DNA of 64,000 nt, from positions 62,001 through 126,000 of the forward strand of contig JAKSZP010004191.1 of NCBI GenBank assembly GCA_022478985.1, written 5' to 3'. How positions within the stretch are numbered: the first letter of the stretch is position 1; each line of letters opens with the position of its first letter. Origin of the DNA: Massospora cicadina. Lineage: Eukaryota > Entomophthoromycota > Entomophthoromycetes > Entomophthorales > Entomophthoraceae. Positions 12,115 through 62,355 of this stretch are shown here, piece by piece. The notes below the pieces were generated by a model. The model was not told where the DNA came from and ran no database searches. It worked only from the letters and a program-made list of their open reading frames with translations. Both the position numbers and the translations under genes were made by a program.

Positions 12115-14005
12115 ACTTAATCAATTTATTCAAGGTACGCCGACCAGGGGATGGACAGTACCAAATCACAACACCCAAAATGACAAAAAAACTACTAACC
12201 AAGTGGGAAGCGGAAACCGCTAACCCACCATGGCAGAGGGTGAGGAGGGGTTGGGGGTTGGTTTTCAGAAGGACCCGCCTCGATCATGGGATGTTGGTTA
12301 CAGTACCAGACTATAGTAGAGAGCCAGGGCGTTGGGGCATCCGCATAGTGGGGGTATAGGTCAGAATAGTAAGAGTTTTCCACTTCCTCATCAAGATAAT
12401 GACGGGAAAGTGTTTCAACAAAAGCTGCGAGGAAAACTTCAGCTTCTTTGTGGGCTTCAGGAAGTTGGGTGAAAAGGGAGACGCTGTGGCAGGTGATTTT
12501 GGCTGAGGGGTTGAATGAAGCAAGCGTTGCAATATTCATAACAACAACTTCAGCATCATCAAATAGTTTCAAGATGTCACTGCAGGCAGATTCAGGGAAG
12601 TTGGGGGAAGAAGAGGGTGGGCAGGCCATGCTGGAACTGAGCCACTGACTGGGCCACTGCAGTGCATAGTTTTGGGCACTGAGGAGAGGCCACCGCAGCT
12701 AAGGCAAGCTGGTGGTCACTTTGGAAGGGGGCTGTATTGGGCAGAGGAGCGAAATGGCGAGGGGTAGGGGTTTCATTGAAGTCAGGGTGGAAACTCTGCC
12801 CAACCATAATCTAATTGGCAGAGAGGTTGACCTGTATGCTTACTAATGGGGACATTACCTGATTTGTCAGTCTCAGCCAATAGATCCCATGGATTTGGTT
12901 CACTGGAATAGTGGAATTCAAATTTAGGTAGGTGGGATTGGACAAATGGGCGGCTGCTTGGGTGCCAACGGTGGTCTAGCATTGCTCTGATTGGCTGGGG
13001 TGGATTTAGGTGGGAGAGTATGGCTGGAGGTTTTGGGGGGCTGATTTTCACGCAGGCCCACTGAATGAGATTGGAGGGTGGGAGGGGGCAGCAAAGCGCC
13101 CCATACTGAACCTCCAGAGGGGGCTCAGAAGCTGCAGCCGCGGAATTGGCCTGAGGGCACGCTTTTTTTGCATGGTCAAGGCCAAAGCAGAGGGAACAAA
13201 TCTGCCTACCATTATCGGATCAAGCCCAAAAGAAATGATCAGGCGCTGCAGCCACACTAGCGCGGGGTGGGATTTGTTGGGCTATGGTAGGGTGGTGTGG
13301 GATGATGGTGGCTGTTGCACGAGGAGCAGCAAGGCGCTCCGCACCAGATGGAATGGCAAAGATGAGGTTGGGCTGAGTGCCATAAGCCATAAGCCCCGCA
13401 ACCAACTGGTCATACAAAACCTGGGGTGGAAGGTGGGATGGGAGATTTGCAAAGGATACCACTAGCATGGTGTCTGAAGGGAGGCGAGTACAGGTTGTGG
13501 GAATGGGGTTTTTTATAAATTAGAGGAATTTGTGCTGCCGCTTCAGCATCCTCCTCATATTGGAACCCAACGTCAAAGTAGCCCTTAAAAGGGCGGAAGT
13601 CTATAAAGCCAGCTGGCACAAAGGCTGCAGTGTCTAGGTCAATAATTGCCTTATTGGCATATGGGAACAAATGCCCATAGTCCACTCTGAGGCAATAGCG
13701 AATGGTGGAGCAAGGGAGGGCGAGAGGATGGGGGCAAGAAGGGCGGACGCGCGCCAGGTGGAGCGCTAAGTTCTGTGGGGGAACAAAATGGCTGGAAGCA
13801 GTGGGTGGGCTGTTTGAGCTCATCCAAACGCGCTTGCCCGCAGGGCAGAAAATTCTAGGTGGGGGTGCACCGCTGCCCCAACTGGGGTGGCAGGTGGCAG
13901 AGCCAAGGACATCAAATAATAGGTTTGGGCAGACGGCTGTGGATAAATAAAACTTAAATTTAAAATATCTCAAAAGTGACTTTGAGCGGTAAAAGAAAGT
14001 TAGGA
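12115..14005 (-). mobile_element. ORF1-only LINE-like element D
   Basis: This 1.89-kb minus-strand element is flanked by the 13-bp duplication TATCAAAATATCA (12,102-12,114 and 14,006-14,018). It carries a LINE ORF1-type gene and no endonuclease or RT. Its 3' tail, read on the minus strand from about 12,156 to 12,124, is GTCCATCCCCTGGTCGGCG then TACCTTGAATAAATT. That matches the tail of LINE B. It is closely related to element E, including the 5' terminal stretch. Confidence 0.85.
12195..13920 (-). pseudogene. element D ORF1-like protein, frameshifted
   Basis: The reading order on the minus strand has four parts. First comes an N-terminal domain with FRPFKGYFDVGFQYEEDAEA. Second is a block beginning MLVVSFANLPSHLPPQVLYD. 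Third is the zinc-knuckle region, broken by TGA at 13,220 where element E has CGG. Last is a C-terminal region with NPWDLLAETDKSGN, SDHQLALAAVASP, ADAPTPWLST and PPTPPHPLPWW. The gene would end near 12,195. At least four frame breaks are present. The role is presumably RNA binding and RNP formation, as for LINE ORF1 proteins. Confidence 0.75.
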
Positions 14006-15241: not shown

Positions 15242-15482
15242 TAAAAACCCCTATTTTATATTAAAAAAATTACGCCACTATAATTCTCTTTTTGGTACTT
15301 GACTTGATAGATTACTTATGCAAATCTTAATATAGGAGGGATACTATAGCTTATGGGACCTAAGAGTGACTTTTCACCCTCAAAAATGCTTAAAATACTT
15401 ATCTTGAGACTTAGACTGCTACAAGTATTGACTTTCAGGCTTTTTGGGCAGCACCTTTGAGCCATAAAATTGAAAGCTTACA

Positions 15483-24858: not shown

Positions 24859-24959
24859 ATACTTTAATTATAGTTTAGATTTATTTGAGGTATGCTGACC
24901 AGGGGACAGACAGTACCGATCACAACACTCAAAACGGCAAAACAAACTACTAACCAGGT

Positions 24960-26678
24960 GGGAAGCAGAAACTGCTTAACCCACCATGGCAGAGGGTGAG
25001 GAGGGGTCGGGGGTTGGTTTTCAGAAAGACCCACCTCGATCAAGGGGTGTTGGTTACAGTACCAGATCAGAGCAGAGAGCCAGGGCGTTGGGGCATCTGC
25101 ATAGTGGGGGCTGAGGTCAGCGTAGTAGGAGTTTTCCACTTCTGCATCAAGATAATGATGGGAAAGTGTTTCAACAAAAGCTGCGAGGAGAACTTCAGCT
25201 TCTTTACGGGCTTCAGGAAGTTGGGTGAAAAGGGAGATACTGTGGCAGATGATTTTGGCTGAGGGGTTGAATGAAGCAAGCGTTGCGACATTCATAACAG
25301 TGATTTCAGCATCATCAAATAGTTTTGAGATGTCACTGCAGGGAGATTCAGGGAAGTCGGGGGGAAGAAGATGGTGGGCAGGCCATGCTGGAGCTGAGCC
25401 ACTGACTGGGCCACTGCGGTGCATAGTTTTGGGCAATGAGGAGAGGCCACCGCAGCTAAGGCGAGCTGGTGGTCACTTTGGAAGGGGGCTGTATTGGGTA
25501 GAGGAGTGAAATGGCGAGGGGTAGGGGTTTCATCAAAGTCGGGAAGGAAAAATTCTGCCTGACCATAATCGCCATGGCAGAGAGGTTGACCTGTATGCTT
25601 ACTAATGAGGATATTACCTGATTCGTCAGTTTCAGCCAATAGATCCCTTGAATTTTGGTTCACTGGAATAGTGGCATTTAAATTTGAGTGGGTAGGATTG
25701 GGCGAATGGGCAGCTGCTTGGGTGTGAATGTTGGTCCAAGCATTGCTCTGATTGGCTGGCTTAGATTTAGGTGGGAGAGTGAGGATGGAGGTTTTGGGTG
25801 GGGCTGATTTTCCATGTGGGCCCACTGAATGAGATTGGAGGGTGGGAGGGGGCAGCAAAGTGCCCCATACTGAACCTCCAGAGGGGGCTCAGAAGTTGCA
25901 TCAGCGGATTTGGCCTTAGGGCACGCTCTTTTTGCATGGTCGATGCCAAAGCAGAGGGAACAAATCTGCCTACCATTATTGACCCGAGCCCAAAAGAAAT
26001 GATCTGGCGCTGCAGCCACACTAGCGCGGGGTGGGATTTGTTGGGCTATGGTAGGGTGGTGTGGTATGATGGTGGCTGTTGCACGAGGAGCAGCAAGGCG
26101 TTCTACACCAGATGGAATGGCAAAGATGAGGTTGGGCTGAGTGCCATAAGCCATGAGCCCCGCGATCAACTGGTCATACAAAACCTGGGGTGGAAGGTGG
26201 GATGGGAGATTTGCAAAGGATACCACTAGCATGGTGTCTGAAGGGAGGCGAGTATGGGTTGTGGGAATGGGGGTTTTTTATAAATTAGAGGAGTTTGTGC
26301 TGCCGCTTCAGCATCCTCCTCAGATTGGAACCCAACGTCAAAGTAGCCCTTAAAAGGGCGGAAGTCTATAAAGCCAGCTGGCGCAAAGGCTGTAGTGGCT
26401 AGGTCAATAATTGCCTTATTGGCATATGGGAACAAACGCCCATAGTCCACTCTGAGGCAATAGCGGATAGCAGAGCGAGGGAGGGCGAGAGGATGGGGGC
26501 GAGAAGGGTGGACGCGCGCCAGGTGGAGCGCTAAGTCCCGTGGGGGGACAAAACGGTTGGAAGCAGTGGGCGGGCTGTTTGAACCCATCTGAACGCGCTT
26601 GCCTGCAGGGCGGAAAACGCTAGGTGGGGGTGCACTGCTACCCCACACTGGGGTGGCAGGCGGCAGAGCCAAGGGCAT
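24960..26678 (-). pseudogene. element E ORF1-like protein with zinc knuckle
   Basis: This is the best-preserved ORF1 of its family. Its order is a Pro-rich N terminus, LRVDYGRLFPYANKAIIDL, FRPFKGYFDVGFQSEEDAEA, and the block MLVVSFANLPSHLPPQVLYD. The CCHC zinc knuckle CSLCFGIDHAKRAC (CX2CX4HX4C) comes next. The C-terminal region then holds NQNSRDLLAETDESGN, SDHQLALAAVASP, ADAPTPWLSAL and PPTPPHPLPWW. Only about three frame breaks separate the long open pieces. One is at an A6C5 tract near 26,270. LINE ORF1 proteins bind the element RNA; this is the likely role. Confidence 0.8.
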
Positions 26679-26733
26679 TAAAGAATAGGTTTTTGGGCAG
26701 ATGGCTGTAGATAAATAAACTTAAATTTAAAAT

Positions 26734-26755
26734 CGCTCAAAAGTGACTTTGAGCG
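26734..26755 (-). repeat. terminal inverted repeat (hairpin) at 5' end of element E
   Basis: CGCTCAAA and TTTGAGCG are perfect 8-bp inverted arms separated by 6 bases. They lie at the 5' end of the minus-strand transcript. Element D has the same place partly decayed (TCTCAAA and TTTGAGCG). Confidence 0.6.
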
Positions 26756-26774
26756 GTTATACTTTAATTATAGT

Positions 26775-32227: not shown

Positions 32228-33601
32228 CACCCAGATAAGGCCACTTTGGTAGTCCATTTTGCCAGGTTGCTGTTATTTCCCTCCCCCAAACACCTTTGCC
32301 ATGAACTGATGGAGGGTCTGGCCGTTTATGGCACAGAACCCATCTTGAAGTTTGTGGTTCTCAACGGGGTGGGTCAGTTGTCAGGGCCTCATGCCTTTGT
32401 GGTAATCTACTTTTCTCATCATGACACCCACCTCATGATTCCCCCTCACGCATGGTGATCATATCTGCACCTGATCACCCTTTTTGGGCGCATGTTGAAA
32501 ATGGCTGCGCCATATGCCCCTTGTGCTTTAAATTAGATCATTTGAAGTGCAAGTGCCCCATGGCTTCCACATCTGCCACTCTTCCTTCTGGCATTGGGCT
32601 GGCTGCTGCCTCACCCAAATTTTTTGAGTGGGGCATGATCCTCTCACCCCCAATTTCAGCTAATTCTGGCTCTTCTTCCAAAGCAGCAGCCAATTAAAAT
32701 TTAAATATTTTTAAAAATTCATCAGAATTATGGAATCCTGAGCTGATGGCTGAGACAGTTTAGCTAAGCTGCCATGGTCAACTCTTTTTAGCCAATCAGG
32801 ATCTGCCACTGCGCCAACTACAGTGGCTAGCCTGGCATTAGATGATTTAAATACATTGAAAGCACTCAAAAAAATTGATGATACAGTTTGGCCTAATAAA
32901 TGTTAAGCCCAATTTTCATATTTGAGATTTTTTGTAAATCCTCCTGATTCACATCCCTGCCAATATAGATCTAAAAATGGCTTCCCTACTTAAAGTATTA
33001 ACAAAACAGCTGCAGAAGCAGCAGCTTCTCCAGCCAACACCCTCCTCCTCCAACATCTCCATGAGGTGATGGAACCCCTTGTTGAGAGTATATCCCATAT
33101 CAATTTCCCCTATAATTTTGATGAGGATGCAAAATATAAAATTGAGGAGCTCACCTGTGGAATAAACCACGCTTGCATTGATGCAGCAAAAACTTTTCTG
33201 TTTGACCCCAATTATCCCAAACCTGCCAGTGCATTAAGTTTTTCACTTGTGTGCCTGCAATCTTCTTTTTTGCTGAGCATCAACTTTCTCAAAGTATTGA
33301 AGCAATGGACACTGTCAGCCTCATTAACATAAGAAAACTTCCAATTATACCTCTTTATGACACATGTTGCTGATGCCCCAACCACTATGCTGTCCGCCAT
33401 GGTACTCCAGCTAAATCAGGCACTGGACATAAAATTCCCCAAAGCTTCCTCACCTTCTTATATGGCTTTCTAGGCTGATCTCTTAGGAAAATATTAGGAA
33501 TTTTTTATTTCTAATAATCCCTTTATTTGGCTCATTTGCAATTAAGATGCGTGGAGGCTCCCCATTATGGGTTGGGCAACACTAGTGCTAAAAAAAGAAA
33601 G
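32228..33601 (+). mobile_element. ORF1-only LINE-like element H, 5'-truncated, tail type 2
   Basis: It is 1,374 bp, flanked by AAAATCATGCTGAGATC (32,211-32,227) and AAAATCTTGCTGAGATC (33,602-33,618), 17 bp with one difference. The sequence starts inside the ORF1 equivalent of element G (at the VVHFARL block), so it was truncated at insertion. The 3' end reads GGGTTGGGCAACACTAGTGC followed by TAAAAAAAG. This is the tail of LINE C, not that of D-G. Confidence 0.82.
32246..33590 (+). pseudogene. element H ORF1-like protein, 5'-truncated
   Basis: The order is VVHFARLLLFPSPKHLCHEL, SAPDHPFWAHVENGCAICPL with zinc knuckle CPLCFKLDHLKCKC (CX2CX4HX4C), ELWNPELMAETV (equivalent to the DLLAETD block of E), then ADAPTTMLSAM near 33,370-33,403. 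The C-terminal region is the same type as in D, E, F and G although the 3' tail differs. Several stops and frameshifts are present. Confidence 0.7.
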
Positions 33602-38800: not shown

Positions 38801-39600
38801 AGGCTTCACCCAATAAAGGGTGAATCTCAACAGCTCCCATGTTTCTTCAAACAATCAGTACTGAAGACGCCCAAGAACTTCGCAAGTGTACCAACAGCCC
38901 AGAGGTTAAAGCTAATTAAGTTTGAAGGTGGACTAATCCTCTTCCACCTTGATTTACTGGTAGGTGCAAGTGTATGGTTGAGTCGTCCCCCATTTCTACA
39001 TTGTGCACAACCCCCTTCATCTTGTAAAGTCATATATGTGGACTTGGAAAAAATCTTAAAATATTCCTCCAAGAGACATCAACCTTCCTACTTTGTTCTG
39101 AGATAAGGGTTTCCCCTATGGAGGTGGTGACAAGAGCTACAATGGAGGATTCTTATAAACCAAGTCGTGGAGGCTTTTGAACCCACATACACAGCTGATG
39201 TCATTGATTGGTACTAAATGCAGAAAGGCGACTGGAGTATTCAGGCCAATGGTTTGGGCCTTTAGAGTCAGACTAACCAGCAATACAGAATGGAGTCAGC
39301 ATATTTGGGGTCAAGGATAACTAGGCAGGTTAAGACCTCATTCATGGATGGATTTTCAGCACCGCGGATTTCCAGAAGGCTCCCAGGTGGTATACTACAT
39401 GAATCCGGGTGTCCACTATAATCTGTGATCCTGGAGGAATTACATTGAGCCTGTGTGAATATATAGGCATCTGTTCTATCCCATTCACTATGAAAGGGGT
39501 AGTTTCATGTGTGACCCTCAAACATGGTAATTAAGTTGATCAATATTGGTTTCAGTTTAAAACTTTTCTTTCTCGTTGCAAACACTTTTGCAACCCATTC
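35887..39600 (-). pseudogene. Ty3-type pol relic I (integrase, RNase H, RT, linker)
   Basis: Read on the minus strand the order is as follows. RT near 37,740-38,020 has GPCNAPITLQQAIDGLLGDF and a dead catalytic box YFNI. The RT-RNase H joint follows near 37,560-37,690 (YRKFVPRFTDLAEPLV). RNase H near 37,150-37,280 reads TNHASLRWIQNMKDPDGRLA and TWAHWILSYNF. Integrase at 36,416-36,868 reads VSVDFIGPLSMSLHGHLYII. In the integrase the SDNG site has become YSNE. Upstream, IPPGSQIIVDTRI near 39,400-39,440 may be the protease-RT linker. Many stops. Confidence 0.75.
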
Positions 39601-39725
39601 AATTCAAGACTAAATCTAGTTTGATAATCTCATAGAGGGGATTAGTCTGCGCCCATGTCTGGGAGCAGTTGGGCAAGCAAGGCAAGAGGAGCAGGCGGAA
39701 GGCCCGCGGCCTCTAACATTCAAAA

Positions 39726-41147
39726 ATGCCCTGGAGAATCCAGCGGAATAGAAAAAAATCTAAAAAAACTGGCGGTCACAATTTCCCCGGAGATACTCGT
39801 GTGGCAAGCATGATGCAACCAGTACATCAACACGCCACATTCCCAGCCACTTTTGTTGGTGGAATTCGGAGTCCATGTGTATCTGGACATCCAAAAAACG
39901 GCCCTAAGGGAAAAATTTTGTGAAGATGTACACAAAATTTTCCCAACCGTGGTGTACGTTGCACCTCACTCCATGTCACATGGTTGGCTGGACCTAGGTT
40001 TCAAAAGCAAAATAGCAGCAGATGAGGCTGCAGTGGTGCGCATAGTGGTCAACCTCCCCGAAGGGCAATGGGTCATCAAAACTAAATGCACCAGATGGAC
40101 AAAATCAAACCAAAAAATTCCTCACGTTTGACTTTTTGCCTACTACGGTAAAACGTGATATTTTATAAGCAACACCTGAAAGATGGTCTCACCATATACA
40201 GCAAAATACAATCTTTCGAAATGCAACGTTTCATGCTGATGCCACACCTGTGCACCAGCAAAGCCATCGCAGTTCTGACCCCAACCAAGGAGATCACAAA
40301 GGACCTAACCCAGATCCCGCACTCCACCTTTATTGACATCGCAGGGCACACCACCCACCCATTCTGGGTAACTGTGGACAGCGCGCCCCCCATTTGCACC
40401 CACTGTGATGCATTCAGCCATAAGGCACACACATGCCCCATCAAAGAGGGCGTCACATTCCAAGAGCACCCCTCAGTGGCCATGGCCAGCGGAGAGGCGC
40501 ACTACGAACCAACCGCAAGCACCAAGGAGGCTTTCCCGTGGGGAGCACAAGGCTGCTACCTATTGGTAAAGCCCATCTCCCCGCAGGAGTGGAAGAAGGC
40601 TAAGCAGGCCCATAGGACTGCGGCCAAGGAAGCAGCCAAGGCCACCACCACCATTCACACTCACAACGCCATGAGGACATGGAGACCTTCATGGCAGAAG
40701 CAACTCAGGAATCCATCACCCAATCAGATTGGGAGGCCCATGCCAAACAGGCCACTCAATCTGAGGATCCAATGGGAGATTCAATCTCACCCAATCGCTG
40801 CATCCAAGCCCCAGTCAAAACTGACTTGGAACCTATCCCAACCAAAAAAATTTTTTTTGCCCCACTCGACGGTGCACCGAACTTATCCACACCGCAAAAA
40901 AATTTGTCTGATGTCAGGAAAACAAAAAGCGAAGGCCAAAGCCAATGTGACTCTTTCCACAAAAATTAACAAAAACCCCAATAGCGTTGCTGCTAATACC
41001 CGTGCTGCTGTGAAAGCCCATGGGGACCTGGAAGAGGCTGGTGGGCCCAGGGGGCCCACCCCCTCGCACCTAAGGTGCGATGGGGGAAACCTTCACTCTA
41101 GGGACGCTGAATATTGCCAGACTCAAGGCCTCCCCGTCCTGGGCTAG
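39726..41147 (+). pseudogene. LINE B ORF1 (RNA-binding, CCHC zinc knuckle)
   Basis: An early block reads LVEFGVHVYLDIQKTALREK, then HGWLDLGFKSKIAADEAAV, equivalent to GYFDVGF in elements D-G. A zinc knuckle CTHCDAFSHKAHTC (CX2CX4HX4C) lies in the 330-aa open frame 40,155-41,147. The reading frame changes at least twice. Around 40,679-40,969 an alternative frame (ETFMAEATQESITQSDWEAH) looks like the true one. The last frame overlaps the ORF2 start by about 68 bp. It lacks the C-terminal region that marks the ORF1-only elements. Confidence 0.7.
41041..41079 (+). promoter_or_regulatory. two adjacent hairpins just before the LINE B ORF2 start
   Basis: GTGGGCCCAGGGGGCCCAC (41,041-41,059) is a perfect 8-bp inverted repeat with a 3-base loop. 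CGCACCTAAGGTGCG (41,065-41,079) is a second perfect inverted repeat. The ORF2 ATG follows immediately at 41,080, with an in-frame TAA at 41,071. A role in translation of ORF2 is inference. Confidence 0.5.
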
Positions 41148-44100
41148 GAAACTGAGTTTTTTACAAAACAATTTACCCGTGGATATCCTGGCCATCCAGG
41201 AGTCCCACTGTCCACGAGGTTCTGAGGAAGCTTGGAAAACAATGCTCCTACCATCCCTATCCTTTTGGTTGAAGCACTGTGGGGTGCTAATTCAGAAAAA
41301 CAATTTTTTCAAATTTACATATTCAGAAACATTCCTAAATGGCCGAGTGCTCATTGTCACCTTCTCATGGGCTGATGTTGCACACACAATCGTCAACATT
41401 TATGCCCCAAACGGTGCACATGAGTGACAGGAATTTTTCTCGTCAGTCAAATCCCTCCCGCTACCCCCCAATTCTTTCCTAATTGGCAACATGAACTGTT
41501 GGCTAACCTCACCAACAGACCGGTGGCCACCCTCACCTCACGCCCCACAGGGTCACATAGAACTACGCGTTCTAAAAGCCACCCTTGGGTTAATGGATGC
41601 ACTGCTGCAACATGCCCCACTGCTCAAAAACATGATGCGTCCTCACGTCCACAACAGCCAATTAAGGTCCATGACCCACATTGACCTTATAGTAACGCTG
41701 GCGAAATTCCAACCCCACATCTCCCACTTCAAAACAACAAAAATGGAATTCTCTGACCACCAACTGGTCTCAATAAGATACCACTTACCCATCACAGTTG
41801 CAAAGGCCCCACATTAGTACAAAATCCGCCCCCCAGAGCTCGCGTCGCCAGGATTTTCCACATGGGTGGAAGAGGCAACTTTGGCAAAATCGTTTGTTGC
41901 ACCATTTTGTGTGGACCCCATCTCCACATGGGCAACTTTCAAAGAAGACACCATCCGCCACTATCGCCATCTCTCATCCAGATGCTCATGAGCCACATCG
42001 GCGGTTATATCGCGCGCGCTGGCAGAATTGGCCCACTTGGAGTCTAACATTCCAGCCTCAGGATATAGCCCTGCATGGGGCCAGAAGTGGGCAGAGGCAG
42101 CTGCCCATCTCAATGCACTTGAAAGGCAACACAAACATTGGGTTTGTGTCCAATACAGGGCCACATGCATCACTAAAGGTGACAAGTGCACCGCATACTT
42201 CTTCAAAAATTTTTTTGCACCATGCCAGAGCATGGCCTGCACACAGGTGCAAAGATCAGATAATTCTATTGTGGACACACTGGCTGAAGTGGCAATCAAA
42301 ATGCAAAGATATTACTCCGAGTTATACTGAGCCAAACCAATTCAGCTGGCCAAAATGGCAGAATTTCTTGACCAAGCTCATATCTGCACCATTTTCTGAT
42401 ACCCAGAAATAATGAATTTAATTACTCTGAACAAATTATGGACTACCATTCGCAGTGCGCCAAACTGAAAATGCCCAGGCCCAGATGGCATTCCATATGA
42501 GTTCTACAAAAAATATTTTAAATATATATCCCCATTGCTGCTAGCCTCACTCAACCAAAGCCTGTTGGAAACGCGCCTCCTACCAGGAGGACATGAGGCC
42601 TTTACGGTCACACTCTTCAAGAAAGGGGATAGGCTAGACTTAGCCAACTGGCGCCCCATTTCTCTAACAAACACAGACACCAAAATTTTAACCAAAATCA
42701 TGGCTAACCGTTTAGGGACTGTAGCATCTGCCACCATCTCTCCAGAACAATTTGGTTTCATCCCCAGAAGGTCGATTTGGGATAACGTGCACTCTGTGGC
42801 TAATGTGTGTCAGTCCACAGCCTCTGGGGCACTTGTATTCTTGGACCAACAAAAGGCCTATGATAGAGTAAACTGGGAATACCTTAGGGCCTGCCTCCAA
42901 CAATTCCGCCTACCTCCCCGCTTCATTAACTGGGTGATGCTGCTCACGGAATCTGCAACAATGGCAGTGCGCAGCCCAGGTTTCCTAACGGAAGTAGTCC
43001 ATCCTCAAGGGGCCTGCGACAAGGGGACCCCCTGAGCCCACTCTTATACAACTTCAGCCTTGACCCACTACTGCGAAATGTGAATGCCCAACTCACTGGG
43101 GTCCATGTGCCAGGCCAAACCCCAGTCAAGATGATGGCATTTGCAGATGATTGCGTGGTGGGGGTGTCTAATAACAAAGATGCACGCGCGCTTGAAGCCC
43201 TCATCCAGGAATATTCCCGGGTAAGCAACGCGGCACTGAACGCCTCCAAAACTGAAATCATCCTCCTTGGTCAGTTTCAGAACTGCTGGGCCCCAGCAAG
43301 TAGTTCCCAACCTGGCCCATCTGCTCGCCCACGTCCACGCCTTACTAACTCAAAACACACCGCTCCACTGGTGCTCCCCTTTGTGCCACGACCTACCATA
43401 GGACCGGTACACCATCTGGGCGTGTGGTTGGAGGCAGGTGGATACGCGTCAGCAGTAATGGAGTGCCATATACTGGACAACGTGACGAAGCGAATCGCCT
43501 CTCTCAGAGCCCACCCTACTACCCTCACTGGCAGGGTTGTTCTTGCCAACTCTATGCTCCTATCCAAAGTCTGGTTCGGAGCCCATGCCATCCCCTTCTC
43601 CCCAAGCTTCTTCAAATCCCTGTATGCTTTGCTACAAGGTTGGCTTTGGTCAGGCCGCCCTCCACCAATACAGCTAGAGGTCATGTTTGGCCCTCATCAT
43701 CATGGTGGCATGGGCCTACTTGACTTCAAAGCCCATGCCGCTAAGATCCTGGGCACCTGGATTGCGGCTGTCACTGCTCCTACACTCCCATCCCAACACT
43801 GGTCCCGCGCGGCCCGCTCCAACTTCTCCCGAGCCTTGGGCCTCAACAATCCATCAAACCCCCACTCCCTGATGAAATACCTCGCATCACACACATCGGC
43901 CACAGGTCCTCACGGGACCAAAACCCACTACAAACGAATCCTACTCTCCATGCGAAGCGCAGAGTGGAGAATTTGTATTAGTGGACATACAACCTGAAGA
44001 GGCCGCCCCTCTCCTCAGTCCACACAAGAGGTACAGGGGCTACCCATCCATGATGGCGTGATCCCCATTCGACCCCAAGTCCTATCCAGGGTGGACTACC

Positions 44101-44597
44101 TGGACATGATGGACATCCCTTATTCTACTGAGACCCAAAAGACTATCTGGAAATATGCACACCATCCTCTGTTGCAGCCTCAAGTCCGCTCCCATGTGTG
44201 GCGCTGCCTGAGGCGGGTGTATCGTACAGCTGAGCACTCTTATGCTTTACACTCATCCTGTGTCATGTGTGGCCAGTATGGAACGCTGTTTCACCGCCTG
44301 GAGAAGTGCCCCACCTCTAAAGTAATATGGCGCGAAGTCCAACGTCTGCTAGGCCAGGATCAAACACATCCCTTCAGTCTGTCAAGAGATATGTTTGCTT
44401 CATCAATGGCCTCCCCCTCCCACCTCCCCTCCAGGCTCTGGTGGTTGCAATCGCCATGTGTACTATCCACACGATTGTCTTGGAGGCCATCGCTGGCTCC
44501 ATTCCCCACCCTCCCAGAAGCTGTCCACAGATTCCGGTCTCATTTGGTGGATCACTTTCAAGTGTGGATATTTGGATATCTCCCACCGCGTCGCTGA
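41080..44597 (+). pseudogene. LINE B ORF2 (AP-endonuclease, RT, CCHC)
   Basis: The ATG at 41,080 opens an endonuclease domain: FTLGTLNIARLKA, DILAIQESHCPRG, VNIYAPNG, FLIGNMN (usual GDFN) and EFSDHQLVSIRYH. RT follows: KCPGPDGIPYEFY, FKKGDRLDLANWRPISLTN, EQFGFIPRRSIWDN and QKAYDRVNWEYL. The catalytic MAFADDCVV is intact near 43,134-43,160. The C-terminal CVMCGQYGTLFHRLEKC fits CX2CX7HX4C. Stops include TGA at 41,425 and TAG at 41,815, and there are several frameshifts. It would nick DNA and perform target-primed reverse transcription; no RNase H is seen. Confidence 0.85.
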
Positions 44598-44800
44598 CAG
44601 CTGGTCTCCTCCTGGTTCCCAGTCTGGTTCATCAAATCAGACCCCTTCCTCCACACGTGCTCAATAGTGGCTACGTCCCCTACACACGTTCCCTCCCCTT
44701 CCCATAAGTGGCGTTCCCGCTGGCAACAAGAGATAGCATCGCTTCTCTGGGGTGCCTCCCCTGGTACTAAGTTTTGTCTCATCTGAGTCATATTCGGAAG

Positions 44801-44854
44801 TGTCCATCCCATGGTTGGCCTTCCCCACAATAAATTTAAATTTAAATTTAAATT
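44801..44854 (+). repeat. LINE B 3' tail (tail type 1)
   Basis: The core TGTCCATCCCATGGTTGGCC matches the tails of D, F, E, G and the two SINEs. It is followed by four tandem AAATTT units at 44,832-44,854. Confidence 0.75.
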
Positions 44855-45034
44855 ATCCATAGTTGATTAGATAACCAGTTCTGGTCCAAAGCTTGACCTG
44901 TATTTCTCCTCAAAATACTCTTATTGTCTTCAGAAGGGATTTAGACCCCTTTTCTGCTAAGCATCACTTTTCGAAAATCAATTCAGCCTGAAATTTAGCT
45001 CCACTAAAGAGATTTACGAAAACTATTAGCAAAT

Positions 45035-47795
45035 ATGGCGGGAAACCCCGCAAAAGAACCCGCAGGCTATGCCAAACGAGCCAGCACCACCCCCAAACGA
45101 AGCAACCCTCAGTTACCCACCTCAGGGTCAACCAGAATCACCCGCTCTCAAGCAGCAGCCATGAAAGCAGGCACCACCCCCCAACCTGGAGCTACTCCAA
45201 CTAGCGCCAGTTCACCTGATCGCACTTCTGCAACCTGCACGCCTAACAGCTCTGTGTGCGCTGCCTCCCACCAACCCGCTGGGCCCCCTCCAACCAAGGA
45301 GGCCATCACCCACGCTGTTTTAATGGCGTCTGCTCAGTTGAATGCAACTCAGCCCATCCAGACATTCACCTCCCCCATTGTGTCAGCTAATTCAGCCCCA
45401 TCTATTATTGCTGACACCGTGTTTCCGGCTCCCTCCATGAGGGGCGATACCCAGCTACCTGGCCCCCAAATCCTCAGATGTAAGGTTGGATTAGCCGCAC
45501 ATTCTGTTTCACTAAGCACCAAATTGGGACAATCTACTCTTCCCAATGAGGATTCAAATGGTTCGGATTTTGGAACTTCACACCAGTTCCAATCTCACCC
45601 GTCCCATTTAAACCCCATAATCGGCACTTCTCAAGTCGGCACTTTATCTCAATATGCTGAAAACGACCAATTCACCAATCAGCCAATGAGTTTTGCCCAC
45701 AAAATCACAGCAAATACTCGGGCTGAATTTACCCAAATAGATTGGGATGGTGATGAAACATCGCCCTCCTCCCAATTGGCTGGAGTTAATTCCAATCTGG
45801 ATGGGACTCCCCAATTTAGCGAGGCCCAACAATCACCTGGCCCCCAAACCCTCGGATGTAAGGTTGGATTAGCCGCACATTCTGGTTCACTAAGCACCAA
45901 ATTGGGACAATCTACTTTTCCCAATGGGGATTTAAATGGTTCAGATTTTGGAACTTCACACCAGTTCAATCTCACCCGTCCCATTTAAACCCCATAATCG
46001 GCACTTCTCAAGTCGGCACTTTATCTCAATATGCTGAAAACGACCAATTCACCAATCAGCCAGTGAGTTTTGCCCACGAAATCACAGCAAATACTCGGGC
46101 TGAATTTACCCAAATAGATTGGGATGGTGATGAAACATCTCCCTCCTCCCAACTGGCTGGAGTTAATTCCAATCTGGATGGGCCTCCCCAATTTAGCGAG
46201 GCCCAACAAACTGCCCCTCAATTTAATATGACGCCAGCAACTGCTGTAACATTCCAGCAACAAGGGAACTCCGCAAACTTGTCCAAACCACCAGCTCACA
46301 CTCAACCTGCAATTGCAGCCCAAAGCAAACACAAACGTACCAAAGGAGCCACTGGGGCGTGGCAAAAACTCTCTGGCACCAACGCTACCTAAAGCTGATC
46401 CCCGTGAAGTGGCGTTTATTGCTGATGTTAAGAAGAAATGGGCCGAAACTAGAGCGCAAAAGCTCTACCTCGCTCAACCCTCTCCACGCAATTCGCCTTT
46501 ATTATGGGCATAACCCTGTTGAATTCTATACAGAGGATTACTTCTCATACTTTGCAGCGATTGCGGAGACATTCCCTATTAACACCACCATCCATGAATC
46601 AGTGGAGGGCCACTACATCGATGTGGGCTTCACTGAAGCTGCCCTTGCTGACCATGCTGCCACCCTCCAGGTCATTATTCCACGCGGATCTCTTCGCATC
46701 TCCCGCACACGCTCTCACCTGGAGAAAATTTCATGGGTTACTTTTTCCAACCTACCAACGACCGTTGATCCTGAGTCTCTTAAACTGGCACTCCATCGTG
46801 GTTTAATGGAGTTTGGATCTATTCTTTCAGTGGACTTTAGCGTCCCCTCTTACTATGCTCCCACTCAAAGAGCTCGCACTGCTAGGGCGTCGTTCATCCC
46901 CTCCCCCACTGTATCCCGCAACATTGAGGTTATTCCTCGTGTGGCGGTAGTTGGGGCATGCCCTGAGATCTTCTTTGTCGACCCTGATCAGGCGCGCCCC
47001 CGGTGTTCATGGTGTAACGCCCTTGGACACTTGTATAATGGCTGCACAGCTCGAAAACAAGCCCTCTTAGCCACCACCCAGGGGCCTAAACCAGGCCAAA
47101 AACGATCCCACGTGGCTGCAGCAGCAATTCCACAACCCACACAATGGGTTCCCGTTCAAGACCTGTCCCCTGAGGCCTTACGCCTAGCAGTTGAAACAGC
47201 TAACCCCACTATTGGTATGGGATACCTTCGCGCTCATGCCCCCCTTCCAATGAGCACCCCCTCCAATCTCCCAGAGTCAACTCCCTCTCTCACCAAGCGC
47301 AAGGCATCTCCCACAGGGTGCCCCTCGTCAGCCACCCCCACTCAGGGCTCCGGCACCCCCACCAACCTCCACCAGCGATTTATCGCATCAACCCTCAGCT
47401 CCCAATGGAGCTATGCCCACCAGCATGGACTGGCAACTCGCGGCCTGCGGTAGAAGTGCCACCTCAAAGAGTCCTACCCCAACCCCACAGTCCATTTCGC
47501 GCGGATCCTTTGCAGTGTTGGAGGAAGTGAATATGGACTCAGACTCATCAAATGGGGACACCGCGGAGGTCACCATTGAGCACCCTCAGGTCCTTCCCCT
47601 GCAACGGAGCGGGGCAGCATCCTAGGCTGGCTTACTGGGTCCTCCGCCCCCCCACCCTCTCCTTCCCCTCAGAACCCTCGACGCTCCTCACGGATTGCAG
47701 CTAATAGTCAAGCTAAAGGACTCAAAACTAGCCGCCTCACAGCAGCAGGTTTAAGCGCTGGCAACCCCCCAGGACATGGAGGGGAACAGCTATGA
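45035..47795 (+). pseudogene. LINE C ORF1 (coiled region, GHYIDVGF domain, CCHC)
   Basis: It starts MAGNPAKEPAGYAKRA and is Ser/Thr/Pro-rich up to 46,390. This part includes a 378-bp tandem duplication whose second unit has lost one base, causing a stop at 45,986. A charged helix DPREVAFIADVKKKWAETRA follows. Next come NPVEFYTEDYFSYFAAIAET, EGHYIDVGFTEAALADHAA and ISWVTFSNLPTTVDPESLKL. The zinc knuckle CSWCNALGHLYNGC fits CX2CX4HX4C. The last frame ends GHGGEQL with its TGA overlapping the ORF2 ATG. Three frame breaks lie near 45,980, 46,500 and 47,450-47,625. Confidence 0.8.
45457..46211 (+). repeat. 378-bp tandem duplication inside LINE C ORF1
   Basis: Unit 1 (45,457-45,834) and unit 2 (45,835-46,211) are nearly identical. 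Both encode CKVGLAAHSxSLSTKLGQST and AEFTQIDWDGDETSPSSQLA. Unit 2 is one base shorter (CAGTTCAATC against CAGTTCCAATC), and that deletion breaks the frame. Confidence 0.9.
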
Positions 47796-50700
47796 GTCCC
47801 CATGGCAGCACCCTGGCCCTGCAATCCATCAACGCAAATGGGTTGCGGGACTTTAAGCGGAGAGCCCGCCTCCTCCGCAACTTCAGGTCAGCACAAATTG
47901 ACATCGCTGCTGTCCAGGAGCCCCATATCCTCCCCCACGAACAATCTGCATGGAATGAACAATTTGGAGGCAACTCCTTCTGGACAAACCATGCCGCCCT
48001 TATTGTTTTGAATCCCCGGGTTAAAACCCATTCTTTTTCACAATATCTAGGTGGCCGCCTCATACTGGCCAAACTCACCACTCCTGACTTCTCCTTCTTC
48101 GCTGCAAGCATCTACCTGCCTAATGCAGGTCAGGAGCAAAATCGGCTCTTGGAAGAGCTCCTCCAACTCAATCTCCCACGGAATACAGTCCTCTTAGAGA
48201 GATTTCAACACAACCATAAGTCGCGTCCGTGACTCTTACCCCCCTGCAGCAAAGGAACGCCCTGGATCAAGTCGCCTCCAGGATTTCCTTCGCCTGAGTG
48301 GCTTTATAGATGCGCTTCCACCCTCCGCGTCTGGCCTAGGTTGCATGACTAGGATCCAGTATGATGGAGGAGCTTTCCAGTCAGCGTCACGCATAGATAT
48401 GGCACTGATTGGCCCCCTGCTAATTGGCCGCGTCTCCTCTCCCATCTCTCGTGACAACCATCTGAGTGATCACAGGTCACTCACCGTTGTCCTCACCACC
48501 ACACTTAGACCGTCGCGTAGGTTCTGGCCTAGGGTTGCCCCAGCTCTTCTCAATAACCCCTTCACTAAGGAGAAGCTGTCTATGACGATCCGGGAGACTC
48601 TCACCTCCCCCCACCCCACCTGCTTGACCACAAGGCTAAATGGGCGGTGACCAAGGAGGGCATCACCCGCGTTGCTTACAACTGTGCTAAAGCCCAGATG
48701 ACTGCAGCTCGCGCCAGAGTCAAAAGGGCGGAAGCCAGAATCAGACATCTAGAGCGAAACTGCCAGCCTTCGCCCTCTCCCAGATGGTTGGAAGACTGGG
48801 AAGCGGCGCAGGAAGCACTCCGCTTGGAGCTCACACTGCAGGAAGAACGGGCAGCAAACTTTACAACATCTCGTTACTATGCTCAATGGGAACGCCCCAC
48901 CCGCTTCTTCTTTCAGAAACAGAAAGCCCGGTCAACAGCGCAGGATATTACTGCACTGAAGATTGGCACTACAACCACTTCAGACAAGGAGGAAATCACG
49001 CAGGAACTACACCGCTTCTACTCCAGCCTCTTCCATGCCACCCAGGTGGACCCATCGGACATCCAAGACTTCCTGTGGCGGGCTCCAGAGCCGCCCATTG
49101 ACCCACGGGCTGATGAGGCTCTACTGGCGCCTATTTCCATCCAGGAGGTGATGGAAACTCTTCTGAACTCCCCACGGCTTAAAGCCCCAGGCCCAGACGA
49201 AATACCCTTTGAGGTTTACCTTCTGGAACCTGCAGTGATAGCCAGAACCCTCCGCGACCTCTTGCTGCACTCTTGGTGAATGGCGAGGTCCTCCCCGACT
49301 CCAGAGGCTCAATCACGACCCTCATTCACAAGAAGTCAGACCGTGAGAACCTGGCGAACTGGCGCCCCATAGCGTTGATCAACACAGACCACAAGCTCTT
49401 CACGAAGCTTCTGGACAACCGCATCACCAAATGAGTGTCACCTCGCCTCTCCCCATCCCAGTACGGTTTTATTCCGGGGAGGTCGTTATGGGACAACTAT
49501 AATGACCTCCACGTGACTTTGACTGCTAACTCTCGTAAGGTGAATGGCTTTGTGGCTCTCCTGGATATGGAGAAAGCATATGATCGCGTAGCCTGGAAGT
49601 ATATTGATGCTTCCCTGGCCCGCTTCCATCTCCCACCCGCAGCTAGGCGCTGGATATCAGCGCTCTATGACCAGCTCCACACCAGAGTCCTGGCGCCAAT
49701 GAGTTTCACAGTGGCAGTACCAGTTGGACAAGGTCTCCGGCAAGGGGACCCCCTGAGCCCTATCCTTTTTAACATCACCCTTGACCCCCTCTTGGCCTCC
49801 TTACAGGACAAGCTAACAGGGATTCTGGTCCCAGGTAAAGCCCCCACACGCACCATGGCATTTGCAGATGACACTGCCATTGCATTTGGCTGCCCTGGGG
49901 ATGTTGCCCTCGCTGCTGTGACCATTGAGAGGTACACCAAGGCGTCCAACGCCATGGTCAACACCTCCAAGACAACAGTTGTGCAGGTCGGCTCCCCCAC
50001 CTTCCCCCCACCATTTGGTATTGAACCTGAGCGCGGTACCTTCCGTCACCTGGGCGTTCTCACCAACCAACAAGGAGTTGCGCTAAAAGACAATGAGGAC
50101 TTGCTCATTGCAGCAGTTAACTCCAGGATTGCCAGCTGGAACCGGCGGCACATCACCCCCAGGGTCGAGCTCTGATGGCCAATGTGTTCCTTCTCTCCAA
50201 AGTCTGGTTCCTAGCGCACGTCTGCCCATTCACAGATGCCTTTTATACGCGGCTCAATGTACTCCTCCGCTGTTGGATCTGGGGCTCAAACCATCCACCA
50301 ATGGCCCTCTCAACCATTTCCCGACCCTGCAATGAAGGGGGCCTAGGGCTTCTGGACACGCGATCCCACGCCACCACAATCTTCCTGAAGTTCCTATGGC
50401 CGATTGTCTGCTGGGACGCGACCCCCATGCCCCAATGGGCGCCCGCCCTCCGCCAGTCAGTGTCAGCAGCTCTGGGTCTTCCTAGAGCATCTCTGACCTC
50501 ATTAGGGGAGTGGCTCACAAACCACCCAGGCCATCGCCTAAAACCATCCTCATCCCCCTACTGGAACCAGGCTCTCCTTGCCCTGAAACGAGTAGGCGCG
50601 CGGATCCACCATGTCTTCCCATACAGAAGGGAAGGCCCTGGCCTCAGCCCACGTCGCCATGCAATTGTGCACAATGGACAAGTTGTCACAACTCGCCTCA

Positions 50701-51323
50701 ACCCCCAAGATCGTCCTCCCATCCGCCCAAGACTCCTTGAGCTCCTCCCTCCCTCCGTGAGATTTGACCTTAAGGAATTGTGGAAGGACGTCTATCACCC
50801 CATCCTGTCAGCAAAGGTGTCCAACACCTTATGGAGGGTGCTCCACTGTTCATACAGGACAGGGGACCGGACTGGCCCTACCTTCCAGCACCGAAGCTGC
50901 CCCCGCTGTGTGGAGCCTAATGACTCCCACCTCCATCGTTTTTTCACCTGTCCAGGTGTCGCCACATTTTGGCCAAAGGCCCGCGCGCTCCTCCATGCTC
51001 AGCCCTGGTCTGGACACCCTGTGCAAGACCTCATGTTTGAGCAGACATTGCCTGGTTGCCACCGACCCCTCCGTGTCCTCGCCTATGCCACAGCCATCTG
51101 GACCATCCATAACTCCTTCCTTCGTGCTGCCTTTGACCAGCAGGTGTGGACCCTTCCACACATGATCACCCACTTTCAGGTACACTTTGAGATGGCCCTG
51201 AAGGTCTGCACTATGTCGCCAACCCTCCCCCGCTCAGTTGTCACTGCAGCACGGCTCTGGCGCGCAAACCCCCTCCCTTTCTCGATGCCTCCTCCCTCCC
51301 CTTCCCTCGCCTCAGGCTCTTAG
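47792..51323 (+). pseudogene. LINE C ORF2 (AP-endonuclease, RT, CCHC)
   Basis: The endonuclease starts MSPHGSTLALQSINANGLRD and continues AAVQEPHILPHE and YLPNAGQEQN. A frameshift near 48,200 lies at the GDFN motif, read as RDFN. SRIDMALIG and SDHRSLTVVL follow. RT has LKAPGPDEIPFEVY, KSDRENLANWRPIALINTD, SQYGFIPGRSLWDN, EKAYDRVAWKYID, GLRQGDPLSPILFN and intact MAFADDTAIAFG near 49,855-49,890. The last 382 aa (50,175-51,323) are open and carry the C-terminal CPRCVEPNDSHLHRFFTC. TGA at 49,432 sits where Arg is likely. Confidence 0.88.
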
Positions 51324-57221: not shown

Positions 57222-57994
57222 GGGTATGTACAATCTTGATAAGCATACATGTACCAATTGACTACAGTGCTTTGAGTGAGATATGAAATAAAGTATTCTG
57301 ACATTTTTTATAGTACCCTATAAGGGCAAACTAAGTTGTTGACAACTCATTCACAAGTACTCTTACCCTATGATGATAAAAGAGAACCAAATTACCTGGA
57401 TGATAGACAGGTAAGCACTATGGCATGACTTAAACTGTTTGGCTTCACAAGAAGTAGTTATTATAAAATACATATCAATAGCTTATAAAAGATTATCTCA
57501 TCAGCTAAAAAAGCACGGTTAATTCAACTGTCTATTGGCTAGATGCTTATATTAGGGGCAGTAAATTTTTTGGTAATATTGGGTCTCTTCCATATATATG
57601 GCCTTGAAGGGCGACATCTTTAAAATTAGTGATAGCTCACTTGGTATGCCAGTAAGGCACTAGGGAAATATCAATCCTCTCATATGGTCAGTAGCAGATA
57701 ATTCTATAAGATGGATGCCAAAGTTCCTTTAGCTCTCTCCACAGCTACATTAGTATCATGTTTTTAGAATAAAATATTGTGTAGTTAAATCTGGTAGTTT
57801 ATTCTTGTATCACTTCAGAGGTTAAATTTAGCCCATTATTGAATAGTGACATCATGTGATTTCCATGATTTGTAAAAACATGCTGAAAGAGGGATAGTGT
57901 AGTGTCATTAACTGTGGCAGTAGGCACAGTGATAGCCTCCACTTACTTACTTAATTAAATGGTTTATGGCTAGAAATATATAAATATATATTAA

Positions 57995-59888
57995 ATTTAT
58001 TTGAGGTATGCCAACCAGGGGATGGACATTGCTGAAAGAGAAACTTCAAGAACAAACCAAACTGAAAATATGAGCCAACTGCCATAAATAAGCAGCGAGA
58101 CACAATAAAATGAGAAAACAACCTACCAGGTCTCACAGCAATGAGCCGCTTATCCCACCATAGTGGAGGGGGAGGGGGATCAGGCAGATTATCAATTTTG
58201 ACTTCAGAAATGAAGAGGCAGACCAATGCTGATAGTAAAGGGGTTGGGGCGTCCATGGGATGAGGGTCAAGGTGGAGAGGATACTTGCTTAAACTGAGAA
58301 TTTGGCCTGAATCATAGCCTCCATGAGTTTGGCCACATTGTTCAGCTTGAATGTGGGCATCGGGAAGGTGGGGAAATTTTTTGATGTTGGCTCTGGTTAC
58401 ATGTGTGGATGGGGAACAATCTGCCAGAGCAGTGACATGTTTGACAGCATTGGTGGCAGTTTCAGCTATGCGTTTGATTTCCTCCTTTGCAACTACAGGG
58501 AAATTGAGTGGAACTTAGTGATGTGCAGCCCTTATTTTAATTTAGCAACAAATTTTGCCACAGCTTCGCGGAGATGGCAATTTTTGGGTGAGGCCACCGC
58601 GGCCTCAGCAAGCTGGTGGTCGATTGGTATGGGTAGCATTGTGTTTTGGAACATAATGTTTGGGCGGAAGTGGGGCATCAAAGTCTGAATTCAGATAAGG
58701 ATCTAATTTGAATGGCTTAGCCAAAGGTGTAACAATTTTTCCAGATTTGGATACTTCATCCAATAAATCCCAGGAATTTTGATTGACTTGGATTGATTTG
58801 GTGATAGGTGGCTGTGGTTGATTAAGTTTTGAGGTGAAGATTTTTTTGGATTGAACATTGGTCAAAGCCTGCACCTGATTGGTTGGCATAGGTGTGAATT
58901 AGCCAGCTTGAGTTTGAGTTACTAGATTTTGCTTCTGATTCAAGAGCATGACCTGAGGGGGTGGGGGTAGCCAAAATCCCCACTCAAACGCTGTTGGTGT
59001 GGCCTCATGGGTTGAGTTGGCAATGTTCGCAGGATGTGAATTGTATTGGCATGCTTTTTTCATATGGTCCAATTCATGGAAGAGGGGGCAAATTGTGCGA
59101 CTGTTGTCAGTATGAGCCCAAAAAGAATTGATCAGGTGTGGATGGGATTAGGCTCGTGGTGGGATGTTCTGGGCCATGGTAAGATGGTGGAGGATAATAA
59201 TGGCCATTGCCCAAGGTGCCACTAGGCGCTCAGCACCACTTGGGACAATAAATTGGAGGATGGTGTCTGTGCCATAAGTGGATAGCCCAGACATCAACTC
59301 CTAATAGAGTATTTGAGGGGGAAGGTGTGAGGGGAGGTTTGCAAAGGTCACCACGAGTGTGGTATCATTGGAGAGACAAGTTGAGTGGTGGTAATGAGTG
59401 TGTTTTTGTATATTAAGTGCGTTGCTGCTGCAGCAGCCGCGTCCTCTTCAGTGGGAAAGTCAATATCAAAATAGCCCTTGTAAGGGCGGAAGTTGATAAA
59501 TCCTGCTGGTGCAAAGGTGGTTGTTGCCAGCTCAATAATCGCTTTGTCAGCATATGGGAAGATATGTTCATACTCAACGCGGAGACAAAACCGGATAGTG
59601 GATCTAGGTAGGGCTAGGGGATGTGGGCAGGTTGGGTGGACTCACGTAAGATGAAGTGCTAAGTCCCTTAGAGGGACAAAGTGGCCAGATGTATTTGGTA
59701 GACTTATTGATCCAGTCTGCAAGCGTTGGCCTGCTGAACGGTAAACACTAGTGGGTGGAGCACCGCTGCCTCACAATAGGGCAGCAGGTGGTGGATCCAA
59801 GGACATAAATGGAAATCTTTGTGGGGAGGCGGCTTATAGATTATAGATTTTTAAGCAAATCTCAAAAGCCTTATATGGTTTAAATCAC
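57995..59888 (-). mobile_element. ORF1-only LINE-like element F
   Basis: This 1.89-kb minus-strand element was inserted into pol relic L. The likely duplication is AATATATATTAA (57,983-57,994) against AATATATTTTAA (59,889-59,900). The 3' tail read on the minus strand is TGTCCATCCCCTGGTTGGC then ATACCTCAAATAAATTT, tail type 1. It has the same length and layout as D and E but diverges clearly from them, so it is an older subfamily member. Confidence 0.8.
58140..59800 (-). pseudogene. element F ORF1-like protein
   Basis: On the minus strand, an N-terminal FRPYKGYFDIDF block lies near 59,450-59,490. A damaged knuckle CPLFHELDHMKKAC follows near 59,050-59,100, with the second Cys replaced by Phe. 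The C-terminal region then shows NQNSWDLLDEVSKSGK, DAPTPLLSAL (near 58,225-58,255) and PPPPPLWW. There are many frame breaks. Conservation of the C-terminal motifs despite divergence from D and E is the useful evidence. Confidence 0.65.
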
Positions 59889-60289
59889 AATATATTTTAA
59901 TTAGTGCTTGAAGCAAAAAAATTGACTCTATAAAAATAGTTGCAGAAAAAAAATATATTATAGCTAAACCAGATGTAGAGTTAAAAATTTCTTAGAACAA
60001 TATATAAATGACCATAAAACCAGTATGCAGGGCATTAAAACATCAATACTCACTCTATGGAAAAGCTATAAGAGGCGCCTATCTGATATTAGAACCTTGA
60101 TTTTGGTTTGTCCTGATACTGCATATCAGACAAGATACCAGAACTTTCTTAATAGGTTATATCATAACCTCCCTGTTTCTCTCTGCTCAGCATAGCTTTC
60201 CAAGCAAATTAATTTTGGTAAATTAAAAGCAAACAATTAATCGCACACCAAAGTCTTGCTCTGATGTCATCAGATTCCCCACTGACTGT

Positions 60290-61975: not shown

Positions 61976-62064
61976 TTAGGTACGATTCAATTGATCCATC
62001 CATTTTGGGCATTTTGTTTGAATTGTTGGTTTTATTTTATTATGATTTTAGTTTTATTTTGGTA

Positions 62065-62355
62065 GGGGGTGGAAGGTGAGTTGGTAAGGGCGTACAGCTA
62101 CCAACCTGAAGGTTGCGGGTTCAATTCCCACCTCTTTGCACATTGATTGGGGTGCCAGCTGAAGGAAGCTATTGGCGGTTAGTAGGTCTAATAACACGAA
62201 AACCTTACCCATGACATAACCAGAAAAATTTGAGTCCCAATCCAGAGGTGGAAAAACTTTCTTCAATGGAGTTGACCCTGTTCAGGTTTCATGTTTTTTC
62301 TTTCTTTCTTTTGGTAATGCCTGTCCCCTAGTCAGCTTGCCTCGGTTAAATAAAA
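62065..62355 (+). mobile_element. SINE 1: tRNA-derived head with LINE tail type 1
   Basis: This 291-bp element is flanked by a perfect 16-bp duplication, TAGTTTTATTTTGGTA (62,049-62,064 and 62,356-62,371). The head GGTGAGTTGGTAAGGGCG (A box) and GCGGGTTCAATTCCCAC (B box, near 62,115-62,131) lie about 30 bases apart, as in tRNA genes. The unrelated body is followed by CTGTCCCCTAGTCAGC then TTGCCTCGGTTAAATAAAA, the tail of elements D-G and LINE B. It inserted just upstream of G's own tail, so two tails lie in tandem. Confidence 0.88.

Follow-up and report, generated by a model that had tools for sequence, protein, structure and literature searches.

The window analysed here, a stretch of 64,000 nucleotides from the genome of Massospora cicadina, an obligate fungal parasite of cicadas, contains five related elements (D, E, F, G and H, Table 1) that probably form one clade, a diversified group of non-autonomous LINE-like retroposons of about 1.9 kb. 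We consider it quite probable that they represent an ORF1-only group resembling HAL1 and HeT-A, which would be moved in trans by LINEs of the same genome via a hairpin at the 3' end, with LINE A and similar LINEs as putative helpers and a putative role of the ORF1 protein in the process.

Table 1. Features of the ORF1-only elements and neighbouring LINEs in the 64,000-nucleotide window.
Feature	Position	Strand	Remarks
Element E with flanking duplications	24859..26774 (core 24875-26758)	minus	
E, target-site duplication, 3' side	24859..24874	none	16 bp
E, target-site duplication, 5' side	26759..26774	none	16 bp
E, 3'-tail hairpin	24889..24917	minus	
E, ORF1 segment N	26274..26678	minus	located by tblastn
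E, ORF1 segment with CCHC knuckle	25888..26265	minus	knuckle read by eye; homologous to ORF1s of RT-bearing LINEs
E, ORF1 segment C1	25373..25879	minus	not found in the LINEs compared
E, ORF1 segment C2	25023..25355	minus	not found in the LINEs compared; protein matches only in Massospora
Element D	12124..13990	minus	about 91% identity to E
Element F	57976..59880	minus	other subfamily than E/D
Element G	about 60168..62411	plus	third subfamily; SINE-like insert near 3' end
SINE-like insert in G	62062..62364 (approximate ends)	plus	same kind of hairpin tail
Element H	32231..33419	plus	decayed and truncated ORF1 piece
LINE A	39560..44853 (approximate ends)	plus	candidate helper; ORF1 with knuckle, RT, 3' hairpin
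LINE A, 3'-tail hairpin	44796..44824	plus	stem GGAAG/CTTCC
LINE B	45008..51323	plus	RT-bearing; ORF1 middle region at 46701-47063 homologous to E

Translated comparison revealed that all five elements encode one and the same ORF1 in pieces, while neither a reverse transcriptase (RT) nor an endonuclease was seen in any of them, in agreement with a first-pass annotation of the window that had described them as carrying an ORF1-type gene without either enzyme. Over 1.88 kb D and E share 90.8% identity, and F matches both at 68–70% over 0.7–0.8 kb; DNA matches of G to D, E and F are confined to short pieces, and its protein match extends along the ORF1. A 3' tail was not found for H. The perfect 16 bp target-site duplication previously read around E is present on both sides of the element, and D is flanked by a duplication of 13 bp. 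In G a 10 bp duplication occurs where one would be expected, although an unrelated repeat of equal length emerged from the same comparison, and the flanks of F hold no duplication longer than 8 bp, such that the claim of a duplication on each element stands for D and E, is weak for G and fails for F.

To follow the elements beyond the window, the M. cicadina genome (1,469,884,898 bases in 16,968 contigs) was searched with E, and the best 40 of 5780 first-look candidates, E itself included, were scored. All 40 of these best copies cover at least 1877 of the 1916 query bases and they share both termini. As the motif TCTCTTT stands immediately upstream of the position of E's first base in 34 of the 40, E itself is missing about 10 nt of the common 5' end. 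Exact flank repeats of at least 10 bp, with a median of 16 bp, accompany 38 of the 40 scored copies; when 5' and 3' flanks of different copies were paired as a control, repeats of this length appeared in 3 of 1560 combinations, by which chance repeats were rejected. Behind the hairpin 38 copies carry AATAAAT and the remaining two a variant of it, and a 3' run of eight A was found in none of the 40. Common ends, duplications of their own and near full length throughout the scored set thus bear out the earlier proposal that the short form itself transposes as a unit. Duplications of variable length and an occasional 5' truncation (4 of 20 copies sampled by their tails, see below) are features of non-LTR elements inserted by target-primed reverse transcription. 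Most of the listed E copies also possess an inverted repeat at the 5' end, GCTCAAA...TTTTGAGC (about 26735-26754 of the window on the minus strand in E), which might form a 5' hairpin.

Copies were furthermore sampled by their tails in order to escape the bias towards complete E copies. Using the last 34 nt of the E/D/F-type tail as pattern, 694 + 654 = 1348 genomic places were retrieved as opposed to none with the reversed control, and 20 of them were fetched in listing order with 7.5 kb upstream each; one tail among the first 21 listed (C12:1059) was dropped, being too close to the contig start. All 20 fetched tails join an ORF1-only element. Thirteen are E/D-like and reach E positions 1–3, including the copy in locus L048 with an identity of only about 80%, two are F-like and reach within 63 nt of the F reference, four are truncated at the 5' side and one is cut by the contig end; RT matches within these loci belong to other elements. 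A second tail variant with the stem GGTAA/TTACC occurs at 203 + 202 = 405 places (control 0), and ten of these were fetched with 0.9 kb upstream. Again all ten join ORF1-only elements with C-terminal ORF1 sequence immediately upstream of the tail, four of them F-like, five G-like and one, L076, which gave no match at an E value of 0.01 and was placed by a C2 match at an E value of 2e-4 together with tblastx matches. The tail C11:23746 in L055 was not refetched and ends a SINE-like element, so that the first 11 places listed comprised 10 ORF1-only elements and one SINE-like element. The prediction that no copies run on into an ORF2 was thereby borne out in 30 of 30 fetched tails of two variants, taken in listing order, whereby RT-bearing relatives with other tails could be missed because the patterns were drawn from ORF1-only elements. 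A third kind of tail, ending in GTTAAATA, occurs at 3317 + 3141 = 6458 genomic places and is found on an RT-bearing LINE in locus L060, on G and on the SINE-like insert of G. Inspection of 100 listed GTTAAATA tails by eye suggests that the loop TGCC goes with TTGCC and TGTC with TTACC, perhaps as a second covarying pair or as two subfamilies.

The tail itself is a 29-nt hairpin consisting of a 5-bp stem around a near-constant 19-nt loop. GGTAC/GTACC is the stem of D and of many copies resembling E, G is among the elements with GGTAA/TTACC, and LINE A has GGAAG/CTTCC. Covariation was assessed on 34 tails, 29 of them distinct, and limited to the 5-bp stem, since the variable Y-R steps in the loop resemble decayed CpG sites. 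Paired stem cells amount to 87.6% compared with 73.9% after shuffling, cells changed on both sides to 16 compared with 4.6, and the covariation measure to 0.303, reached in 0 of 500 shuffles, compared with 0.077. The shuffles overstate the certainty because many of the tails are related; the stem types nevertheless differ on both sides. Pairing is best at slide 0 and the signal is destroyed by sliding the partner, while the outermost pair fails in 10 and the innermost in 7 of the 29 distinct tails. As single-sequence folding of the tails yields z values of only −0.31 to −2.81, it is the covariation on which the hairpin rests.

The same kind of hairpin terminates three RT-bearing LINEs: LINE A in the window, the L060 LINE and an A-like LINE in L065 whose 3' stem half is imperfect. 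It also closes an A-like LINE of which a 3' fragment lies in L061. An RT-bearing LINE with exactly the tail of E was not found among them, LINE A and the L060 LINE differing from it in the stem and the last bases. The last bases GTTAAATAAA are common to G and the L060 LINE, and AATAAATTTAA is common to F and LINE A. In stringent-type LINEs of zebrafish, binding of the 3' stem by the ORF2 protein is described as general and that of the loop as specific (PMC4176376). A constant loop on a covarying stem would fit recognition of this type by an ORF2 protein.

Homology between the ORF1-only elements and LINEs extends to the middle region of ORF1. The RT of LINE A corresponds to Pfam RVT_1, and the piece of the L060 LINE gave a sub-threshold match to zf-RVT. 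For the middle region of E, matches were obtained in the ORF1 of LINE A at window positions 40338-40439 (E value 0.003), in that of LINE B with 33.6% identity over 122 residues (E value 3e-12) and in that of an RT-bearing LINE in L063 (E value 1e-5), besides A-like copies in L050 and L065; the ORF1 of G matches LINE A at 40170-40457 (E value 1e-4). A hairpin tail of the E/LINE A kind was not found on LINE B. For C1 and C2, in turn, LINEs A and B gave no match below an E value of 1, the LINEs of L050, L060, L063 and L065 gave none at E values up to 1, and in an unfiltered comparison over seven loci both segments were present only in ORF1-only elements. In a tree of the middle region, built from 16 sequences of up to about 160 residues with L003 and L004 absent, five LINE sequences of three LINE types separate from 11 ORF1-only sequences with a support of 0.994. 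This makes it likely rather than proved that the ORF1-only elements are one clade, because the tree is unrooted for lack of an outgroup and the LINE sample is small.

The insert near the 3' end of G was read as SINE-like because a tRNA-like box was recognised by eye and because L055 and L062 contain similar stretches; a tRNA gene was not detected in it by ARAGORN. The element appears to be dispersed (window about 62062-62364, L055:4211-4516 and L062:4985-5169), its copies in G and L055 carry a hairpin of the LINE/ORF1-only kind, and in G the tail of the insert directly precedes that of G itself, resulting in two tails in tandem. Two further rearrangements in the window are worth recording. Close to the 5' end of LINE B, a segment of about 376 bp is duplicated in tandem with 96.5% identity (45457-46209), and both units are matched by a copy in L052. 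At 14510-15242 a 733-bp stretch matches its own reverse complement at 81% and looks like a fold-back insertion interrupting a repeat (14004-14517 and 15244-15476), of which an uninterrupted relative at 21483-22232 would represent the empty-site paralogue.

The ORF1 of E comprises about 534 codons in four segments separated by three frame breaks, so that the assembly presents shifted frames in place of a single open one. Among the 40 scored E copies the first junction is in frame in ten, the second and the third in none, and no copy is in frame over all four segments; an ATG frame of at least 333 codons spanning the N and CCHC segments is found in seven. In 18 further elements the first junction is in frame in seven, the second in five and the third in three, one or two of them for example in L055, L060, L062, L063 and F, with none of the 18 having all three in frame. 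Read segment by segment, 27 of the 40 E copies show no in-frame nonsense codon over the roughly 534 codons. The recurrent breaks sit at runs of A or C, and indels of the E copies concentrate in runs of at least four: deleted cells per column and copy amount to 0.018 where a run has six or more letters and to no more than 0.0003 where it has one to three. For the 1.49 Gb assembly of M. cicadina, Oxford Nanopore R9.4.1 reads are described as having been assembled with wtdbg2 and polished with Illumina data (PMC9584336). Breaks in homopolymers fit the error of R9.4.1 reads and also slippage during copying, and because the recurrent breaks lie in homopolymers of an assembly of this kind, decay and sequencing error are not separable here. 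Three ORF1 pieces gave no Pfam match at E values up to 0.1, and the C2 piece lacks one. All 28 database protein matches of the C2 piece are hypothetical Massospora proteins, in a search detecting only relatives that share exact 5-residue words, and the seven database relatives of the ORF1 of G are all M. cicadina proteins.

Selection on ORF1 was assessed for 16 pairs over the four segments together, leaving the incomplete copies in L053, L054, L064 and L065 out of the codon alignment. Between subfamilies dN/dS lies at 0.25–0.53 overall. Values of 0.25–0.32 are obtained for E or L048 against F, L056 or G as well as for F against G, 0.42–0.44 for the E/D group against L048 and 0.36–0.53 among F-like copies (E–F 0.28, E–G 0.25, F–G 0.28, E–L048 0.42 and F–L056 0.36). 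Single segments reach 0.99, and some values per segment were not computable on account of saturated dS; subfamilies with the same short architecture have diverged at dS above 1. In shifted frames 27 of 32 values fall between 0.80 and 1.54, the lowest being 0.62. Within the E/D group dN/dS amounts to 0.56, 0.58, 0.65 and 0.77, and for the pairs D–L066 and L051–L067 a shifted frame equals the true one or falls below it; taken as a ratio of means, the 40 E copies among themselves give 0.52.

Of the 1496 changes among the E copies, 662 are CpG transitions; since these bias dS, transversions were recounted alone. By codon position 1/2/3 they number 83/78/164 for E–F, 105/95/168 for E–G, 111/88/163 for F–G, 45/43/78 for L056–F and 33/23/55 for E–L048, as against 11/9/10 without positional bias for E–D. 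Both dN/dS and the transversion bias between subfamilies therefore indicate that ORF1 was constrained while these diverged, whereas recent constraint in the E/D group is not demonstrated, given the even E–D transversions and shifted frames that are equally low. A dN/dS well below 1, named by the first-pass annotation as support for selection on the protein, is accordingly observed between subfamilies, and its view that the subfamilies diverged while keeping their ORF1 is upheld for past constraint, with no copy examined being open throughout. Most of this constraint probably fell on the short form itself, given that its architecture is common to E, F and G. The observed/expected ratio of CpG is 0.35 in the window and 0.50 in the E copies, as if cytosine methylation were active in this fungus.

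Several other explanations can be weighed against this evidence. The elements might be SINE-like passengers that move solely by virtue of their tail, their ORF1 being a relic without present function. In favour of such an origin speak the 40 E copies, none of which is fully in frame, the E/D ratios of 0.56–0.77 with unbiased E–D transversions and the SINE-like element of the same genome that ends in the same kind of tail; we nonetheless judge it rather unlikely, in view of the dN/dS of 0.25–0.53 between subfamilies over four segments, the 27 E copies free of in-frame nonsense codons and the fact that the breaks lie in homopolymers of an R9.4.1 assembly, with the same junctions in frame in some copies. 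A separate origin of E, F and G in different LINEs, in which the constraint would then have acted, appears improbable as well. It is favoured by GTTAAATAAA shared by G and the L060 LINE and AATAAATTTAA shared by F and LINE A, by the unrooted tree and by mammalian HAL1 being described as having arisen several times (PMC5753468). Against it, C1 and C2 are common to all of the elements but were not found in the LINEs compared, and tail bases could be exchanged without a new origin.

Ordinary deletion derivatives of one extant LINE with the same ORF1, ORF2 and tail would likewise account for an ORF1 middle region homologous to LINE ORF1s and for a related tail on RT-bearing LINEs. Yet the 30 sampled tails without exception lack an ORF2, on which ground derivation from a present LINE was set aside, neither C1 nor C2 was detected in LINEs A and B or those of L050, L060, L063 and L065, and subfamilies at dS above 1 keep the same short architecture, all of which renders this origin very unlikely. 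An autonomous element with an unrecognised polymerase in C1–C2 is hardly conceivable to us: C2 is devoid of Pfam matches and its 28 protein matches are all hypothetical Massospora proteins, but only about 300 residues would be left for such an enzyme, and ends and a hairpin common to RT-bearing LINEs provide the simpler account.

We thus favour ORF1-only elements that are moved in trans by LINEs. Each element would derive from a unit that codes for one ORF1 protein, comprising an N-terminal region, a middle region bearing the CCHC knuckle and its own kind of C-terminal region, and that ends in the 29-nt hairpin. A full-length RNA of the unit would be transcribed and probably coated by the ORF1 protein translated from it, whereupon the ORF2 protein of LINE A or of a LINE of the L060 kind may recognise the hairpin and insert a copy through target-primed reverse transcription, from which duplications of mostly 10–23 bp would result. 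That the ORF1 protein is made and assists its own RNA, and that LINEs of these two kinds are the helpers, is inferred. A more far-reaching scenario, which we put forward tentatively and rate somewhat below an even chance, is a single ancient half-LINE lineage with its own ORF1 C-terminal domain that has long been a parasite of several LINE types, its many subfamilies tracking their helpers by changes in the covarying 3' hairpin and its ORF1 being used to compete for the helpers' enzyme.

ORF1-only retroposons encoding a protein are familiar from mammals (HAL1) and from Drosophila (HeT-A), and the M. cicadina units apparently constitute a third, independent case in an early-diverging fungus. 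They share with HAL1 that they are non-autonomous and possess an ORF1 and no ORF2, but their ORF1 bears a CCHC knuckle and its own C-terminal region, which would set it apart from the L1 ORF1, and they terminate in a hairpin followed by an AATAAAT-type end, whereas the 3' end of HAL1 is poly(A). The first-pass annotation's notion of a fungal counterpart of HAL1 is hence adequate with regard to comparable working through ORF1 only, but not to membership, as the CCHC ORF1 resembles that of the local LINEs and the hairpin takes the place of poly(A). With HeT-A they have Gag/ORF1-only coding in common; HeT-A, however, inserts at chromosome ends only, while the M. cicadina units lie inside contigs and show duplications in 38 of the 40 scored copies. 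Like SINEs of stringent-type LINEs they share a 3' stem-loop with an RT-bearing LINE, but they are about 1.9 kb long and derive from a protein-coding unit whose ORF1 was under past constraint. LINE A and the L060 LINE have a hairpin of the same kind, and LINE A also a homologous ORF1 middle region, but both carry an RT, and C1–C2 was not found in them. HAL1 (half-L1) is described as a non-autonomous element that encodes only the LINE ORF1 protein (PMC5753468) and whose helper is likely a LINE acting in trans (PMC4161310), and HeT-A as encoding Gag only.

A literature search, with most subscription papers outside its reach, returned no description of comparable elements in Massospora. The two tail variants together account for at least about 1,750 exact copies in the genome. 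An expansion of LINEs is reported for M. cicadina (PMC11105155), and the ORF1-only units may account for part of it. The contribution of an ORF1 protein to its own RNA, separate from that of ORF2, thereby becomes testable in a single genome.
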